A stretch of DNA of 64,000 nucleotides from Bacteroidaceae bacterium. Lineage in GTDB: Bacteria > Bacteroidota > Bacteroidia > Bacteroidales > Bacteroidaceae. A model generated the notes under the pieces. The model did not search any database. It was not told the origin of the DNA and saw only the letters and a program-made list of their open reading frames with translations. The first letter of the stretch is position 1, and each line of letters starts with the position of its first letter. The translations under genes were made by a program, and so were the position numbers. The stretch spans positions 39,448 through 103,447 of the forward strand of contig JAKSLI010000002.1 of NCBI GenBank assembly GCA_024401305.1. Direction: 5' to 3'. This document shows, piece by piece, positions 2,699-37,090 of this stretch.

Positions 2699-3928
2699 AT
2701 GCTCAACTACATCTGGTTTTCCTTCTTCGCGATAGCCTTTATCGCAGCTCTCTGCCAATCCATCTTTGGCGGCGATGCCGATATATGGTCACGCCTGATG
2801 AACTGCACCTTCGAGTCGTCGCAGAAGGCGTTCGAGATTTGCCTCGGACTCACTGGCGTGCTTACCTTCTGGCTGGGACTCATGAAGATTGGTGAGAAGG
2901 CAGGGCTTGTGGCTAAGTTGGGCAAGTGGATCAGTCCACTCTTCTCGCGCATATTTCCCGGCATACCGAAAGGACATCCGGCATCAGGAAGCATCGTTCT
3001 CAATGTATCTGCCAACATCCTCGGACTCGACAATGCCGCAACGCCTATGGGATTGAAGGCAATGAAGGAGTTGCAGGAGCTAAATCCGAAAAAAGATACT
3101 GCCTCCGACGCAATGATCATGATGCTCGTGCTCAATACAAGCGGACTTACCATCATACCGATTTCCGTCATGATGTATCGCGCACAGTATCACGCTGCCA
3201 ATCCGAGCGATGTGTTCATGCCGATACTCCTTGCTACTTTCTGTAGCACTCTTGCCGGACTCATCCTCGTCTGCCTTAAGCAGAAGATAAACCTCTTCGA
3301 CAAGGTTCTTGGCACCATGCTTCTCGGTTCAATCGCCTTCATCGGCGGCATCTGTTGGCTCTTCAGCAGCATGAACCAGGAGCAGATAGCGTTCTATTCT
3401 ACGCTCTTCAGCAATGTACTGCTGTTCTCTGCCATTATGACTTTCATCGGAAGCGGTATGTTGAAGAAAGTGCCTATCTTTGAGACTTTCATTGAAGGCG
3501 CAAAGGAAGGTTTCTCTACGGTGGTAACAATCATTCCGTATCAGATAGCGCTCTTCGTGGGCATCTCGCTCTTCCGCGAATGTGGTGCGATGACATTCAT
3601 CACCAACGGCATCGAGTGGCTTGTCAGTCTCGTATGGTTGCCTACCGATTTCGTGCCGTCGCTGCCATGCGCCATACTGAAACCCCTTTCGGGAGGCGGT
3701 GCCCGTGCTGCCATGCTCGATGTCTTTGAGGCATACGGCGTTGACAGCTTTGCGGGAAAACTCGCATCATGCGTACAAGGAGCAACCGACACTACGATGT
3801 ACATCCTTGCCGTATATTTCGGTAGCGTAGGCATCAAGAAGTTCCGATATGCAGCCACATACGGACTTCTGGCAGACCTCGTTGGAGTTGTAGCAGCCAT
3901 CTTCATGGGCTATATCTTCTTCGCTTGA
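2699..3928 (+). CDS. SpmA/SpmB-like nucleoside-recognition (gate) domain membrane protein
   Basis: A 409-residue polytopic membrane protein in which both halves of the SpmA-SpmB pair are fused. The N-terminal half (about 1-200) has GLTGVLTFWLGLMKIGEKAG and LGLDNAATPMGLKAM. The C-terminal half (about 215-409) has AKEGFSTVVTIIPYQIALFV and CAILKPLSGGGARAAM. Both are typical gate-domain segments. Outside spore formers the role is not settled, and transport of a small solute is the usual guess. Roughly eight or more hydrophobic spans are visible. It starts at an ATG next to a repeat. Confidence 0.85.
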   Translation: MLNYIWFSFFAIAFIAALCQSIFGGDADIWSRLMNCTFESSQKAFEICLGLTGVLTFWLGLMKIGEKAGLVAKLGKWISPLFSRIFPGIPKGHPASGSIVLNVSANILGLDNAATPMGLKAMKELQELNPKKDTASDAMIMMLVLNTSGLTIIPISVMMYRAQYHAANPSDVFMPILLATFCSTLAGLILVCLKQKINLFDKVLGTMLLGSIAFIGGICWLFSSMNQEQIAFYSTLFSNVLLFSAIMTFIGSGMLKKVPIFETFIEGAKEGFSTVVTIIPYQIALFVGISLFRECGAMTFITNGIEWLVSLVWLPTDFVPSLPCAILKPLSGGGARAAMLDVFEAYGVDSFAGKLASCVQGATDTTMYILAVYFGSVGIKKFRYAATYGLLADLVGVVAAIFMGYIFFA

Positions 3929-33444: not shown

Positions 33445-34188
33445 GTGTTACATAAATCTATATTCATACTCTCGTTCGTGTTCTCTTGTGCGATTGGCTA
33501 CGCGCAGGAGGTTGGGCAGCCTGTGGTTGTGGATCAGGAGAATGTTATGCCTATTACCGTAGAGCATGAGATTGCACAGCCCGACATGGCGGCAGCTCTT
33601 GATGGTGACATGGCATTGCAAGACTCGCTGCATCTGCCTCTGCTGAATGCTCTCGGACAGATGCCTACGCTTGGCTATCGCGGCTACTATAACTATCTCC
33701 CTTTATATGGAGGTATGGGATGGGGCTTTTGGCAGCTTCATGAAGGTCTTAATGTGGGTCTCGGCGCGAGTGTATTCGCTGAATTTGGCAAGAACGCTCG
33801 TCGTGGAGCAGGCTTCTCACAGCAGCTTGCAGTACAGTATGCGCAACCATTGACCGACAAGCTTTCGCTAGCTGTGGGCGGTTATCTGACGAATGTAATC
33901 TGGCAGCACGACAGCTATCGCGATGCAGGACTTTCTGCAGTGCTTGGCTATCGCTTCAACGAGAAATGGGAGGCTTACGTTTATGGACAGAAATCGCTTA
34001 TGCACACAAACAATTACATGCCAATGTCGGTCTATGCCCTTGAGCAAATCGGCGATCGTGTAGGTGCGGCTGTGAAATACAATTTCTCTCCTTCTTTCAG
34101 TGTGCAGCTTGGCTTTGAGGAAACTGTCACACCAAACATCCCAAGAATGCCTGTGCCACCATCACCTCACGACAATCATAGGCGGTAG
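33445..34188 (+). CDS. Secreted outer-membrane beta-barrel-like protein
   Basis: A 247-residue protein with a GTG start and signal peptide LHKSIFILSFVFSCAIGYAQ. After a Pro/Asp-rich stretch (about 25-75), alternating polar/aromatic strands follow: GLGASVFAEFGKNARRG, LSLAVGGYLTNVIWQ, WEAYVYGQKSLM, FSVQLGFEETV. It ends with the tail MPVPPSPHDNHRR. A small 8-strand barrel is plausible. The function is unknown. It lies 59 bp after the ABC operon with a repeat between. No ATG is available near the signal peptide. Confidence 0.7.
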   Translation: MLHKSIFILSFVFSCAIGYAQEVGQPVVVDQENVMPITVEHEIAQPDMAAALDGDMALQDSLHLPLLNALGQMPTLGYRGYYNYLPLYGGMGWGFWQLHEGLNVGLGASVFAEFGKNARRGAGFSQQLAVQYAQPLTDKLSLAVGGYLTNVIWQHDSYRDAGLSAVLGYRFNEKWEAYVYGQKSLMHTNNYMPMSVYALEQIGDRVGAAVKYNFSPSFSVQLGFEETVTPNIPRMPVPPSPHDNHRR

Positions 34189-34199
34189 GTTGTGAGGGG

Positions 34200-35279
34200 T
34201 TAGTCTTCTTCAAGGCGTTGGAGATGGCAGTGCATGAGGTTGCCGTCTTCGTCGTGAAGGTGCATGCCGTTGCCTTCGCAATAGCGGAAAACCTTGCAGT
34301 CGGCACAGATGCCTTTCTTCGCCCAATCGCGGTTGCGATAGTTCTGGTAGCGGTTTTCCCATACGTCCCAGAAGTCGTCCTTGTAGATGTTTCCTTGATA
34401 GAACTTGCTGCGAATGCTGGTACATGCCGACATGCTTCCGTCGATAAGTATCGAAGCAACACTGATGCCTGCATGGCAACGGTATAGGGCATCGCGAACT
34501 TCCGATTCGTAATCGCCAAGGAAACCTTCGCATGCATAGCTGGTATGAATGAGATTCTCCTTGCGACAGTCCTTTATGAAGTCCATGAGATAGCGGAAAT
34601 CCTTATTTGACAATTGGAAATCAGGATACTGCTTTGCCCTGCCTACAGGGAATATTGAGAACAATCGCCACTTGCGAACGCCTGCTTCGTAGAGCGTTTC
34701 CTTCAGTTTTGGCAGGTATTTTATGTTACGACCATTAACGCAAGTAACAACATCCCAGACAACACCGCGCGTTCTAGCCATCAGTTTTATGGCACGCATG
34801 GCATTCTGATAGCTGTTTTCGTGACCACGCATCCAGTTGTGGTCTTCTTCCAAACCGTCGAGGCTGATGGCTACGCTGCTTAGTCCTGCGTCGAGAAGTC
34901 GGCGAAGGCGTTCTTCTGTAAGCAACATACCGTTGGTAACGATAGACCATGGGAACTCGCGCTTCTTGAGTTCCATGCCCACATCCTCAATATCCTTTCG
35001 CATAAGAGGTTCGCCGCCAGAGAAGATTATCATCAGGCGGTGCGGATCGTCTATGTTGGGAAGTATGCTCTTGTCGATGACGCGAAGGAAGTCTTCTGCA
35101 GGCATATCTGGAGTCTCGGCAACAACCTTGCAGTCGCTGCCACAATGCTTGCACTTCAGATTGCAGCGCAGAGTGCACTCCCAGAACAATTGGCGCAACG
35201 GATGAATCTTCTTCTCGTTGTTGCGCATCATTCGGTCTATCTCCAAAGCAACACGCTTCTTGAAAGGTATCTTCGTCAT
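34200..35279 (-). CDS. Radical SAM/SPASM enzyme of the rSAM/lipoprotein system
   Basis: A 359-residue enzyme. The radical-SAM cluster motif CNLKCKHC (C39, C43, C46) lies near the N-terminus, followed by FSGGEPLMRKDIED, VTNGMLLTEE and VAISLDGLEEDHNWMRG. The C-terminal SPASM-type Cys set (CHAGISVASILIDGSMSACT, ICADCKVFRYCEGNGMH, MHCH) binds extra Fe-S clusters, as in peptide-modifying maturases. It starts one base after the stop codon of the small lipoprotein gene. This pairing matches the described 'rSAM/lipoprotein' families of Bacteroidales; the modification made is not known to me. The likely substrate is the neighbour's YGGP motif. Confidence 0.88.
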   Translation of the reverse strand: MTKIPFKKRVALEIDRMMRNNEKKIHPLRQLFWECTLRCNLKCKHCGSDCKVVAETPDMPAEDFLRVIDKSILPNIDDPHRLMIIFSGGEPLMRKDIEDVGMELKKREFPWSIVTNGMLLTEERLRRLLDAGLSSVAISLDGLEEDHNWMRGHENSYQNAMRAIKLMARTRGVVWDVVTCVNGRNIKYLPKLKETLYEAGVRKWRLFSIFPVGRAKQYPDFQLSNKDFRYLMDFIKDCRKENLIHTSYACEGFLGDYESEVRDALYRCHAGISVASILIDGSMSACTSIRSKFYQGNIYKDDFWDVWENRYQNYRNRDWAKKGICADCKVFRYCEGNGMHLHDEDGNLMHCHLQRLEED

Positions 35280-35280
35280 C

Positions 35281-35529
35281 TTATTCAGACTTTTCCTCGA
35301 TGATTACCTTCTCCTGGTCATTGTAACGGCTGTATGGACCGCCATACATAACCCTCATCTTCTGATCCTCATCGACTTTTAGCGTGTCAAGCTTTTCATA
35401 CATATCCGGACCTCCGTACATGCACTCTGGTCCTCTGCCAATCTTGAAGCTATTGCATGCAGAAAAACCAAAGACGGAAAGAACAAAAGCAAGAATGCTG
35501 TTGATTGCGATTAGTATTTTCCTTTTCAT
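35281..35529 (-). CDS. Radical-SAM-associated small lipoprotein, probable modified peptide
   Basis: An 82-residue precursor. Residues 1-24 form a signal peptide with lipobox GFSAC (C25), so the mature part is only 58 residues. That part contains two copies of the motif M-Y-G-G-P: ECMYGGPDMYEK at about 35-46 and RVMYGGPYSRY at about 59-69. A single Cys precedes the first. Families next to this rSAM type typically carry a C-x-Y-G-x-P motif, so these are the probable modification sites. Secretion as a lipoprotein would put the modified part at the envelope. Confidence 0.85.
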   Translation of the reverse strand: MKRKILIAINSILAFVLSVFGFSACNSFKIGRGPECMYGGPDMYEKLDTLKVDEDQKMRVMYGGPYSRYNDQEKVIIEEKSE

Positions 35530-35561: not shown

Positions 35562-35569
35562 CAAAAGTA
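35562..35569 (-). promoter_or_regulatory. -7 box of the lipoprotein-rSAM operon
   Basis: TACTTTTG on the minus strand, 33 bp before the lipoprotein ATG. Confidence 0.55.
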
Positions 35570-35692: not shown

Positions 35693-37090
35693 ATGGAATT
35701 TGTTTATCTTGGAATTGGATTGGTAGTGGGTGCTGTCGTTATGTTTTTCATTGGCAAAAGCAAGCGTGCAGCCGTGGAGGCATTACTCGATGCGGAGAAA
35801 AAAGACCGTGCGGGAGACGAGAAGCGTCTTGAGGAACGAATCGTTGAAGTGAAGAACGAATGCAAGCAACGCATCGCAGAAGTGAAGGCGGAAGCAGCAG
35901 ATGTGCTCGCAAAGCAGAAAGCAGAAGCAGCGGATGTACTTGCAAAGCAGAAGGCAGAGGCTAAGGAAATGCTGGAGTCTGGCAAGAAAGAGGCAGACCA
36001 TCTTCGCATGAAGGAGATTGAGGAACTAAAACAGAGTTACGAGCAGCAGATGAAACTCTTCAAGGAAGAGATGAAGACCGCTACTGATGCTTTGCTGAAA
36101 GAGCGCAGCAGTGCGTTGCAGTCTGCTAATACGGAGCAGATGGAAGTGCTCTTCAAACCGTTGAAGGACAACATAGAGCGCATGGAGAAGTCTATCGTTG
36201 ACAACCGTGAGGCACAGGCTCGTAATACTGCAAGCATTGCCAAGACCATGGAGCAGATGATGCAGCGTACAGCAGACCTTGGCCAGCAGGCGGATAGACT
36301 CAGCAATGCCCTTCAAAGAAAGAACAAGACTGCCGGCAACTGGGGCGAGCTTGTGCTTACCGAACTGCTTGAAAGCCAGGGCTTACAGCAGGGTATTCAC
36401 TTCGATGCGCAGCAGTCGATGAAGGACGAACTCGGACATTCGCTTCGTAATGAGGACAGTGGCTCAAGAATGATTCCTGACGTTGTGCTACATCTTGCCG
36501 ATAATCGCGATGTGATCATTGACTCAAAGATGTCGCTAACAGCCTATGCAGACTATCAGAATGCTGAGACGGAAGAGGAGAAAGCAGAGGCTTCACAGCG
36601 CCATTTGGACTCGGTCCGTGCGCATATCAAGGAACTTATAGCCAAGAATTACAGCGACTATGTGAAGAAACCTCGCGTGAGCAGTGATTTCGTGATAATG
36701 TTCGTGCCTATTGAAGGTGCGTTGCAGTTGGCTTTGAGCAAGGCTCCAGAACTATGGCGTGAAGCTTTCGACAAGAGAGTGTTCCTCGTGGGAGGCCAGA
36801 CTCTCATTGCAGCCCTTCGCATCATTGACCTCACTTGGGTGAATGTGCAGCAGGAGAGGAACACGCAGAAAATCATGGATGAAGCACGCAAACTCGTGGA
36901 TAGGGTAGGGCAGTTCTATGCTAACTTTGAAGAAGTCGGCAAGAAACTCGCAGCAGCCCAGGATGCCTATAAGTCAGTGCAAGACAAAGTCAAGGATGGA
37001 CGCCAAAGCATTCTCGGCGCAGGCCATACACTGGAAGAACTTGGCGTGCGTGGAAAGAAGGCACTGCCAAGGTTGGAGAGCGATAGCTGA
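35693..37090 (+). CDS. rmuC: DNA recombination protein RmuC
   Basis: A 465-residue protein. An N-terminal membrane anchor (FVYLGIGLVVGAVVMFFIG) is followed by a long coiled coil (about 30-215) rich in Ala, Glu and Lys. The RmuC nuclease-like domain has NWGELVLTELLESQGLQQG, IPDVVLHLADNRDVIIDSKM (the D-x-K of a restriction-like fold), FVIMFVPIEGALQLAL and RVFLVGGQTLIAALRIIDL. RmuC limits inverted-repeat recombination. The coil contains the duplicated unit AEAADVLAKQK, read from a tandem 27-30 bp repeat near 35890-35950. Confidence 0.93.
   Translation: MEFVYLGIGLVVGAVVMFFIGKSKRAAVEALLDAEKKDRAGDEKRLEERIVEVKNECKQRIAEVKAEAADVLAKQKAEAADVLAKQKAEAKEMLESGKKEADHLRMKEIEELKQSYEQQMKLFKEEMKTATDALLKERSSALQSANTEQMEVLFKPLKDNIERMEKSIVDNREAQARNTASIAKTMEQMMQRTADLGQQADRLSNALQRKNKTAGNWGELVLTELLESQGLQQGIHFDAQQSMKDELGHSLRNEDSGSRMIPDVVLHLADNRDVIIDSKMSLTAYADYQNAETEEEKAEASQRHLDSVRAHIKELIAKNYSDYVKKPRVSSDFVIMFVPIEGALQLALSKAPELWREAFDKRVFLVGGQTLIAALRIIDLTWVNVQQERNTQKIMDEARKLVDRVGQFYANFEEVGKKLAAAQDAYKSVQDKVKDGRQSILGAGHTLEELGVRGKKALPRLESDS

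Follow-up and report, generated by a model that had tools for sequence, protein, structure and literature searches.

The splicease PlpX excises tyramine from Xaa-Tyr-Gly (XYG) sites, and beta-amino acid ketoamides are described both as a moiety for protease inhibition and as a bioorthogonal handle (PMC11002830). For the PlpXY pair, MYG and LYG are the natural sites. The pair also takes some tags that end in PGYGLPI, and an Affibody with GGPIRPGYGLPI at its end is reported to be spliced (PMC10533398). Of 16 tagged FtsZ constructs, PlpXY took only 2, each built on a GYGLPI core; neither of the LYG tags (GGPIRPLYGLPI and GPIRPLYGLPI) was accepted (PMC10533398, Table 1), so that a YGLP sequence alone is no guarantee of splicing. 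Citing Scott 2022, the same paper credits its group with 27 further splicease systems that were characterized and 939 that were predicted (PMC10533398). In the Nostoc sp. C057 cluster, a TIGR04103 enzyme (853 bits, cut-off 725) is accompanied by a 71-aa protein, taken as PlpY by its place and size, and by a Nif11 precursor that ends in GGRGSIALYGLPPELF, with ALYGLPPELF as its last residues. PlpX falls under IPR026482, which we take to be TIGR04103.

A radical SAM enzyme of family TIGR04133 adjoining a TIGR04134 lipoprotein is likewise an already known pair, listed in NCBIfam as a 'hypothetical equivalog' with no function given. A text search of the literature, with the primary splicease papers outside its scope, returned no mention of TIGR04133 or TIGR04134, no link between spliceases or spliceotides and lipoproteins, and no reaction reported for a member of TIGR04133. 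The text available from a Bacteroidales RiPP survey (PMC10352776) and from a review of radical SAM RiPP enzymes (PMC8326336) makes no such assignment, and the word 'lipoprotein' occurs there 0 times. Prior recognition of TIGR04133 as a splicease is possible, because the 939 predicted systems may include it.

Here we analyse such a pair in a 64,000-nucleotide stretch of a Bacteroidaceae genome (the window; contig JAKSLI010000002.1). Its YGGP sites resemble those of protein-splicing enzymes, suggesting that Bacteroidales may cut tyrosines from the backbones of envelope lipoproteins. The new elements proposed are a specific tyramine-excision chemistry for TIGR04133, a compact substrate and a second one encoded far off in the same genome. 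On the strength of sequence comparison, we think it fairly probable that TIGR04133 enzymes are lipoprotein spliceases that excise tyramine, with C8H9NO (135.07 Da) lost per site.

The lipoprotein precursor and its adjoining enzyme

The minus strand of the window encodes an 82-aa lipoprotein precursor, the proposed splicease substrate (35281..35529), and, one base beyond its stop at 35281, a 359-aa radical SAM/SPASM enzyme whose ORF starts at 35279 (34200..35279). The precursor reads MKRKILIAINSILAFVLSVFGFSAC followed by NSFKIGRGPECMYGGPDMYEKLDTLKVDEDQKMRVMYGGPYSRYNDQEKVIIEEKSE. Its signal peptide and lipobox (35455..35529, minus strand) close with SVFGFSAC, an [LFM]G[FLYI]-type end that we propose as a recognition aid; with the lipobox Cys at residue 25, the mature part comes to 58 residues. 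Two MYGGP motifs start at residues 37 (35407..35421, minus strand; context ECMYGGPDMY) and 61 (35335..35349, minus strand; context RVMYGGPYSRY). The original prediction had described exactly this arrangement, a lipoprotein of 82 residues one base from a radical SAM gene with two MYGGP motifs in a 58-residue mature part, and the coordinates agree. When the mature part was shuffled 200,000 times, at least one YGxP arose at a frequency of 0.026 and at least two at 0.00013.

The enzyme is a TIGR04133 member, scoring 583.2 bits (cut-off 425) over model positions 1–350 of 350, and its Pfam Radical_SAM and SPASM matches are both above cut-off. Its CX3CX2C [4Fe-4S]/SAM motif (C39, C43 and C46; 35142..35165, minus strand), followed by an HCGS signature, is conserved in 53/53 rows of an alignment of TIGR04133 enzymes and in 13/13 of a smaller set. 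The locus thus resembles the described TIGR04133/TIGR04134 pair in its enzyme, in the adjoining lipoprotein and in the YGxP near the anchor. It differs in that the lipoprotein carries two sites, lacks any Pfam match and scores 26.7 bits against TIGR04134, under the cut-off of 39.8, with a match (residues 5–43) that spans the signal peptide and first motif only. On our own reading, the TIGR04134 family consists of lipobox-bearing precursors with YGxP that adjoin a TIGR04133 enzyme. The 82-aa protein fits this description and is a short relative of the family.

On one side of the pair lies a divergent gene at 35693, rmuC-like by eye; on the other, at 33445, is a convergent gene whose Pfam matches are all sub-cut-off. 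Neither suggests that the operon extends beyond the pair. Read by eye, TACTTTTG stands at window positions 35562–35569 (minus strand), about 33 bases ahead of the lipoprotein start, and matches the Bacteroidetes −7 element TAnnTTTG.

Acidic residues after the lipid-bearing Cys are a surface-export signal. Of the 108 substrates collected across the family (described below), 37 have at least two of them at positions +2 to +6, as do 4 of the 25 short ones; surface display of the 82-aa lipoprotein is not supported, because it has no acidic residue at these positions. The original prediction had the YGGP sites modified and displayed at the envelope. Family membership, co-localisation and motif conservation support both the pairing of enzyme and lipoprotein and the idea that these are the sites of modification, although modification and envelope display both remain putative.

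Kinship with XYG-linked enzymes

Sequence comparison sets TIGR04133 alongside TIGR04103/TIGR03913-type enzymes and apart from the remaining SPASM proteins. Against the TIGR04133 profile, the XYG group scored 124.6–187.4 bits and the enzymes of L035, L123 and L162 scored 171–176, versus at most 118.0 for each of 15 outgroups. Three trees, in which the Nostoc TIGR04103 enzyme stands in for PlpX and between which long, odd or redundant outgroup rows were removed, place TIGR04133, the XYG group and L035/L123/L162 on one side, with support of 100/98 (17 outgroup rows), 98/97 (9 outgroup rows, L117 omitted) and 98/96 (15 outgroups, including MftC, PqqE, NirJ, TIGR04053, a NirJ2/AhbD-like SPASM protein and others). 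The trees leave the branching order within this clade unsettled, and the TIGR04133 stem is long, at 1.73 changes per column in the 15-outgroup tree. Three residues mark TIGR04133 and the XYG group against the outgroups: G47 of HCGS (23/23 versus 0/15), W204 (23/23 versus 2/15) and G252 (22/23 versus 1/15). E34 was weakened as a clade signature once the outgroup set was enlarged, with 5/15 outgroups carrying it. L035, L123 and L162, from the window's phylum, form a third supported subgroup in which HCAS replaces HCGS; for two of them, L035 and L123, no XYG partner was seen in the flanks.

Direct scoring places the families further apart. The window enzyme reaches 109.7 bits against TIGR04103, far under the cut-off of 725, and in its NCBIfam ranking TIGR04103 comes seventh after its own model, behind AhbD, TIGR04053, NirJ2, NirJ, AhbC and TIGR04347. 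AhbD, NirJ2, NirJ and AhbC are heme-synthesis models. For the L009 enzyme TIGR04103 ranks first after self, and for that of L026 it is not listed at E 1e-25.

An XYG precursor lies alongside 7 of the 10 XYG enzymes (L116, L029, L135, L119, L118, L032 and L034), and none was found in the flanks examined for L031, L033 and L117. XYG proteins adjoining the related enzymes carry LYGTPP (L032), MYGTG (L118) and PYG, AYG or LYG (L029, L030, L119 and L135). TIGR03913 ('GDL motif', DUF1843) belongs to the same clade as TIGR04133 and has precursors with PYG, AYG or LYG near the N terminus; unlike the TIGR04133 substrates, these are small peptides with no lipobox seen. In L034 (G297:C3), from a genome of the window's own family, a TIGR04103/TIGR03913-like radical SAM gene (1468–2919) is followed by a 214-aa protein (2955–3599) with six KYGYPxC-type repeats, making this locus a candidate multi-site splicease. 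On a plasmid of Agathobacter rectalis (L118, 3755–5197), the radical SAM enzyme with the top score of all non-TIGR04133 rows against the TIGR04133 profile has, upstream of it, a small ORF whose product ends in FGPVMYGTGVRM.

The window pair shares with PlpA/PlpX/PlpY an XYG substrate motif, with YGLP occurring in PlpA-derived tags and in the Nostoc precursor, and a related enzyme with HCGS, W204 and G252 in common. It departs from that system in having a lipoprotein signal peptide instead of a Nif11/NHLP leader, in its altered SPASM cysteines, in falling short of the TIGR04103 cut-off and in that no PlpY-like gene was found at TIGR04133 loci (a one-sequence search of 100 loci with the Nostoc 71-aa protein, of weak sensitivity).

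Spliceases have a seven-Cys SPASM pattern, CX9-15GX4C...CX2CX5CX3C...C. TIGR04133 matches six of the seven, and the SPASM region of the window enzyme (34227..34478, minus strand) reads C268-C286-C325-C328-C334-C351 with Gly at the missing position, 338. This position is Cys in 10/10 XYG enzymes, Gly, Ser or Ala in 13/13 TIGR04133 enzymes and Gly in 53/53 rows of the larger TIGR04133 alignment. Cysteines 50, 180 and 250 are conserved instead in 13/13 TIGR04133 enzymes, with C50 and C250 present in 2/10 XYG rows and C180 in 0/10. As the Cys at 338 is gone and these three are conserved in its stead, the auxiliary cluster of TIGR04133 probably differs from that of the XYG enzymes, and C250 could be a substitute cluster ligand. 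C35, found in 12/13 enzymes of the small set, was dropped as a conserved residue because only 39/53 of the larger set carry it.

SPASM enzymes as a class catalyse many reactions, and TIGR04133, with its long stem and altered SPASM cysteines, could have a new one at the same recognition site. The enzyme might accordingly alter the Tyr or Gly of YGxP and keep the backbone atoms, through epimerisation, hydroxylation, oxidation or a cross-link to a nearby residue. We consider this unlikely: the closest enzymes in the trees are the XYG-linked ones, and the TIGR04133 site is itself X-Y-G, with LYGLP recurring in a TIGR04103 precursor.

Sites and substrates across TIGR04133 loci

The window's own locus and 19 from related genomes, some sharing one genome, made up a first set of 20, to which the best 80 among the matches listed were added as named loci of a genome collection. 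L045 and L113, whose enzyme ORF was not recognised by the pattern, were excluded from the counts, leaving 98 loci; L113, though excluded, has a YGMP neighbour. The 98 are partly non-independent, with shared genomes or near-identical pairs kept (for example, L016 and L101). A neighbour was called as a substrate if it lay on the same strand within 1.5 kb and had a lipobox and YGxP, and the resulting 108 distinct substrates are mutually related, hence not 108 independent cases. Their 145 sites were chosen by YGxP, so that Y, G and P are given in advance, and it is the number of loci that serves as an independent measure.

The original prediction treated the duplicated motif as a special feature. 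Duplication is ordinary in this family, because proteins carry up to four motifs: 77 of the 108 substrates have one, 27 have two, 2 have three and 2 have four, giving at least two in 31/108. The maximum is reached in L074 and L084, by lipoproteins of 92–95 aa with four YGxP each. The mature part is short, at 25–79 residues, in 25/108 substrates, and many others carry a TIGR04134-type domain. Short substrates with two or more YG sites also occur in near relatives (L037, L038 and L039, the last with one YGAP and one YGVAP).

The residue preceding Tyr varies (M in 47, E in 44, K in 23, L in 13, V in 13, C in 4 and A in 1 of the 145 sites), as expected if X is freely homologated. The X-Y-G-x-P of the Nostoc precursor recurs in the lipoproteins, as in ALYGGPNMRF (L016) and ECVYGPPPEFY (L019). 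At −2, Cys is the commonest residue, in 31/145 sites, and ECMYG appears both in window site 1 and in the second substrate of the window's genome (L166, below). A thioether or other bond from this Cys to the Tyr or Gly of C-x-Y-G-x-P could account for such sites, and yet we hold a Cys-centred reaction to be improbable, with Cys absent from −2 in 114/145 sites, among them window site 2 and those of three of the four lipoproteins that L019 encodes in tandem. Of the C-x-Y-G-x-P motif cited in the original prediction, the YGxP part is thus retained and the Cys is not general.

The gap between the lipobox Cys and the first Tyr is 7–14 residues in 67/108 substrates, which puts the motif between the anchor and the remainder of the protein. 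Were the chain broken at Tyr, the motif would be a site of peptide release, not of splicing. We find this a shade less credible again, given that known relatives of TIGR04133 rejoin the chain (PMC11002830) and that proteins with three or four sites would end as fragments.

Two further features lie outside the motif core. An aromatic residue at +7 is found in 98/145 sites overall, and F or Y in 12/44 sites of short substrates; strong overall and weak in short substrates, it was not kept as part of the motif and may be largely a trace of where the TIGR04134 domain begins. [LFM]G[FLYI] just ahead of the lipobox Cys occurs in 87/108 substrates versus 2/46 other lipoproteins, and in 17/25 short substrates, suggesting, for a set of mutually related sequences, that the signal peptide doubles as a recognition leader.

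A same-strand YGxP neighbour is present at 93/98 enzyme loci, the window's own included, and at 90/98 it also has a lipobox; the three that fail the lipobox test are L021 (with a membrane anchor), L051 and L087. L041 and L078 have no lipobox-YGxP neighbour, but these loci begin at contig ends. In L012 the neighbouring lipoprotein carries the variant YGPRP, and in L172, from a genome sharing only the phylum with the window's, the neighbour carries EYGVREP. L036, whose enzyme is the closest to the window's among the matches listed (78% identical), has no YGxP neighbour, and a full-length EYGSP lipoprotein is encoded elsewhere in its genome. Whole-genome TIGR04134 searches at E 1, a threshold that gives sub-cut-off matches in 9/14 control genomes and that short substrates could escape, returned one above-cut-off match for L036's genome, two for L078's and weak domain matches only for those of L041 and L012. 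Among other predicted lipoproteins of the same loci and the window, YGxP occurs in 1/46, the L043 neighbour substrate, with a loosely called lipobox. Given the rarity in shuffles, the 93/98 loci and the 1/46 other lipoproteins, the YGxP motif is beyond chance.

Homologues keeping the enzyme without the motif had been named as evidence against modification. In the loci examined, which answer this in part, 93/98 keep the motif; the departures include the variants of L012 and L172, L036 with its EYGSP lipoprotein elsewhere, and L065, where none was found. That the lipoprotein is no substrate and the genes are linked for another reason, as L065 might suggest with an enzyme, no YGxP neighbour and 0 TIGR04134 matches in its 1.2-Mb genome, is very improbable when the YGxP neighbour persists at nearly all loci though the rest of these proteins diverges widely, and when L036 has its YGxP lipoprotein elsewhere.

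A profile search finds one TIGR04133 enzyme in the window's genome, and a second full-length TIGR04134 lipoprotein, of 146 aa and including LGFQSCDEVIPGGGMECMYGTPSAHF, is encoded on another contig (L166; G000:C22, 3195–3635), with no TIGR04133 enzyme among the ORFs of the surrounding 7 kb. Its site context, ECMYGTP, resembles the ECMYGGP of window site 1. With one enzyme and a second lipoprotein bearing a similar site, the window's enzyme probably serves at least two lipoproteins. Several substrates per cluster are also seen elsewhere, with four in L019 and three in L016. Three ORFs stand upstream of the L166 substrate (names by eye), one ECF-sigma-like, one outer-membrane-like and one for a further lipoprotein. 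The L166 lipoprotein may be expressed with an envelope regulon. An EC-x-YG-x-P DNA pattern gave 3 matches in the genome versus 1 for a reversed-pattern control; the third match (contig C2, ECGYGMP) fell outside any listed ORF of at least 60 aa and was discarded.

The TIGR04133 family is patchily distributed. Its enzyme is present in 18/60 related genomes and, counting the window's own, in 3/395 genomes of a draw from the whole phylum, and a profile search of 21 genomes around G304 gave 0 matches. Above-cut-off TIGR04134 lipoproteins occur in 8/60 related genomes, all 8 within the 18 enzyme carriers. One culturable strain with the pair is Bacteroides clarus YIT 12056 (L042). Sub-cut-off TIGR04134 matches at E 0.001 occur in 34/60, many without the enzyme; because these mostly cover the domain part only, in frames of at least 650 aa, they probably represent different proteins that contain a similar domain.

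Proposed tyramine excision and the lipoproteins of the envelope

Likeness of the substrate motif, kinship of the enzymes, rare shared residues, a variable X and the co-occurrence of enzyme and TIGR04134 together suggest that TIGR04133 enzymes are spliceases. Counting against this are the low TIGR04103 score, the long stem, the change at position 338, the choosiness of PlpXY, the failure to find a PlpY-like protein, the scarcity of aromatic +7 in short substrates, the 3/10 XYG rows without a precursor and the TIGR04134 matches without an enzyme.

From the genes, their family membership, the conserved motif and the kinship with XYG-linked enzymes, all read from sequence, we infer a reaction, an order of events, a recognition role for the signal peptide and a biological role. 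In the cytoplasm, ahead of Sec export, the TIGR04133 enzyme would bind the prelipoprotein, with the LGF-type signal peptide as recognition leader in place of a Nif11/NHLP leader and PlpY, and would excise tyramine at both YGGP sites. Export, lipidation at Cys25 and anchoring would follow, leaving two electrophilic ketoamides near the membrane, where they might inhibit proteases or react with amines in the envelope. For the family at large, we see an even chance that TIGR04133 spliceases make one to four ketoamides per lipoprotein, use the signal peptide as leader, serve several lipoproteins with one enzyme and rely on changed SPASM ligands.

Tyramine excision by TIGR04133 would give a gene family now labelled 'radical SAM with lipoprotein' a precise and cheap prediction, a loss of 135.07 Da per YGxP. 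The 58-residue, two-site substrate yields two well-sized tryptic peptides, VMYGGPYSR and GPECMYGGPDMYEK, which makes it a handy test case and its enzyme perhaps a PlpY-free tool. If the prediction is true, beta-amino acid ketoamides sit on envelope lipoproteins of Bacteroidales, and backbone splicing would be, beyond the making of small peptides, a modification of envelope proteins in this order.
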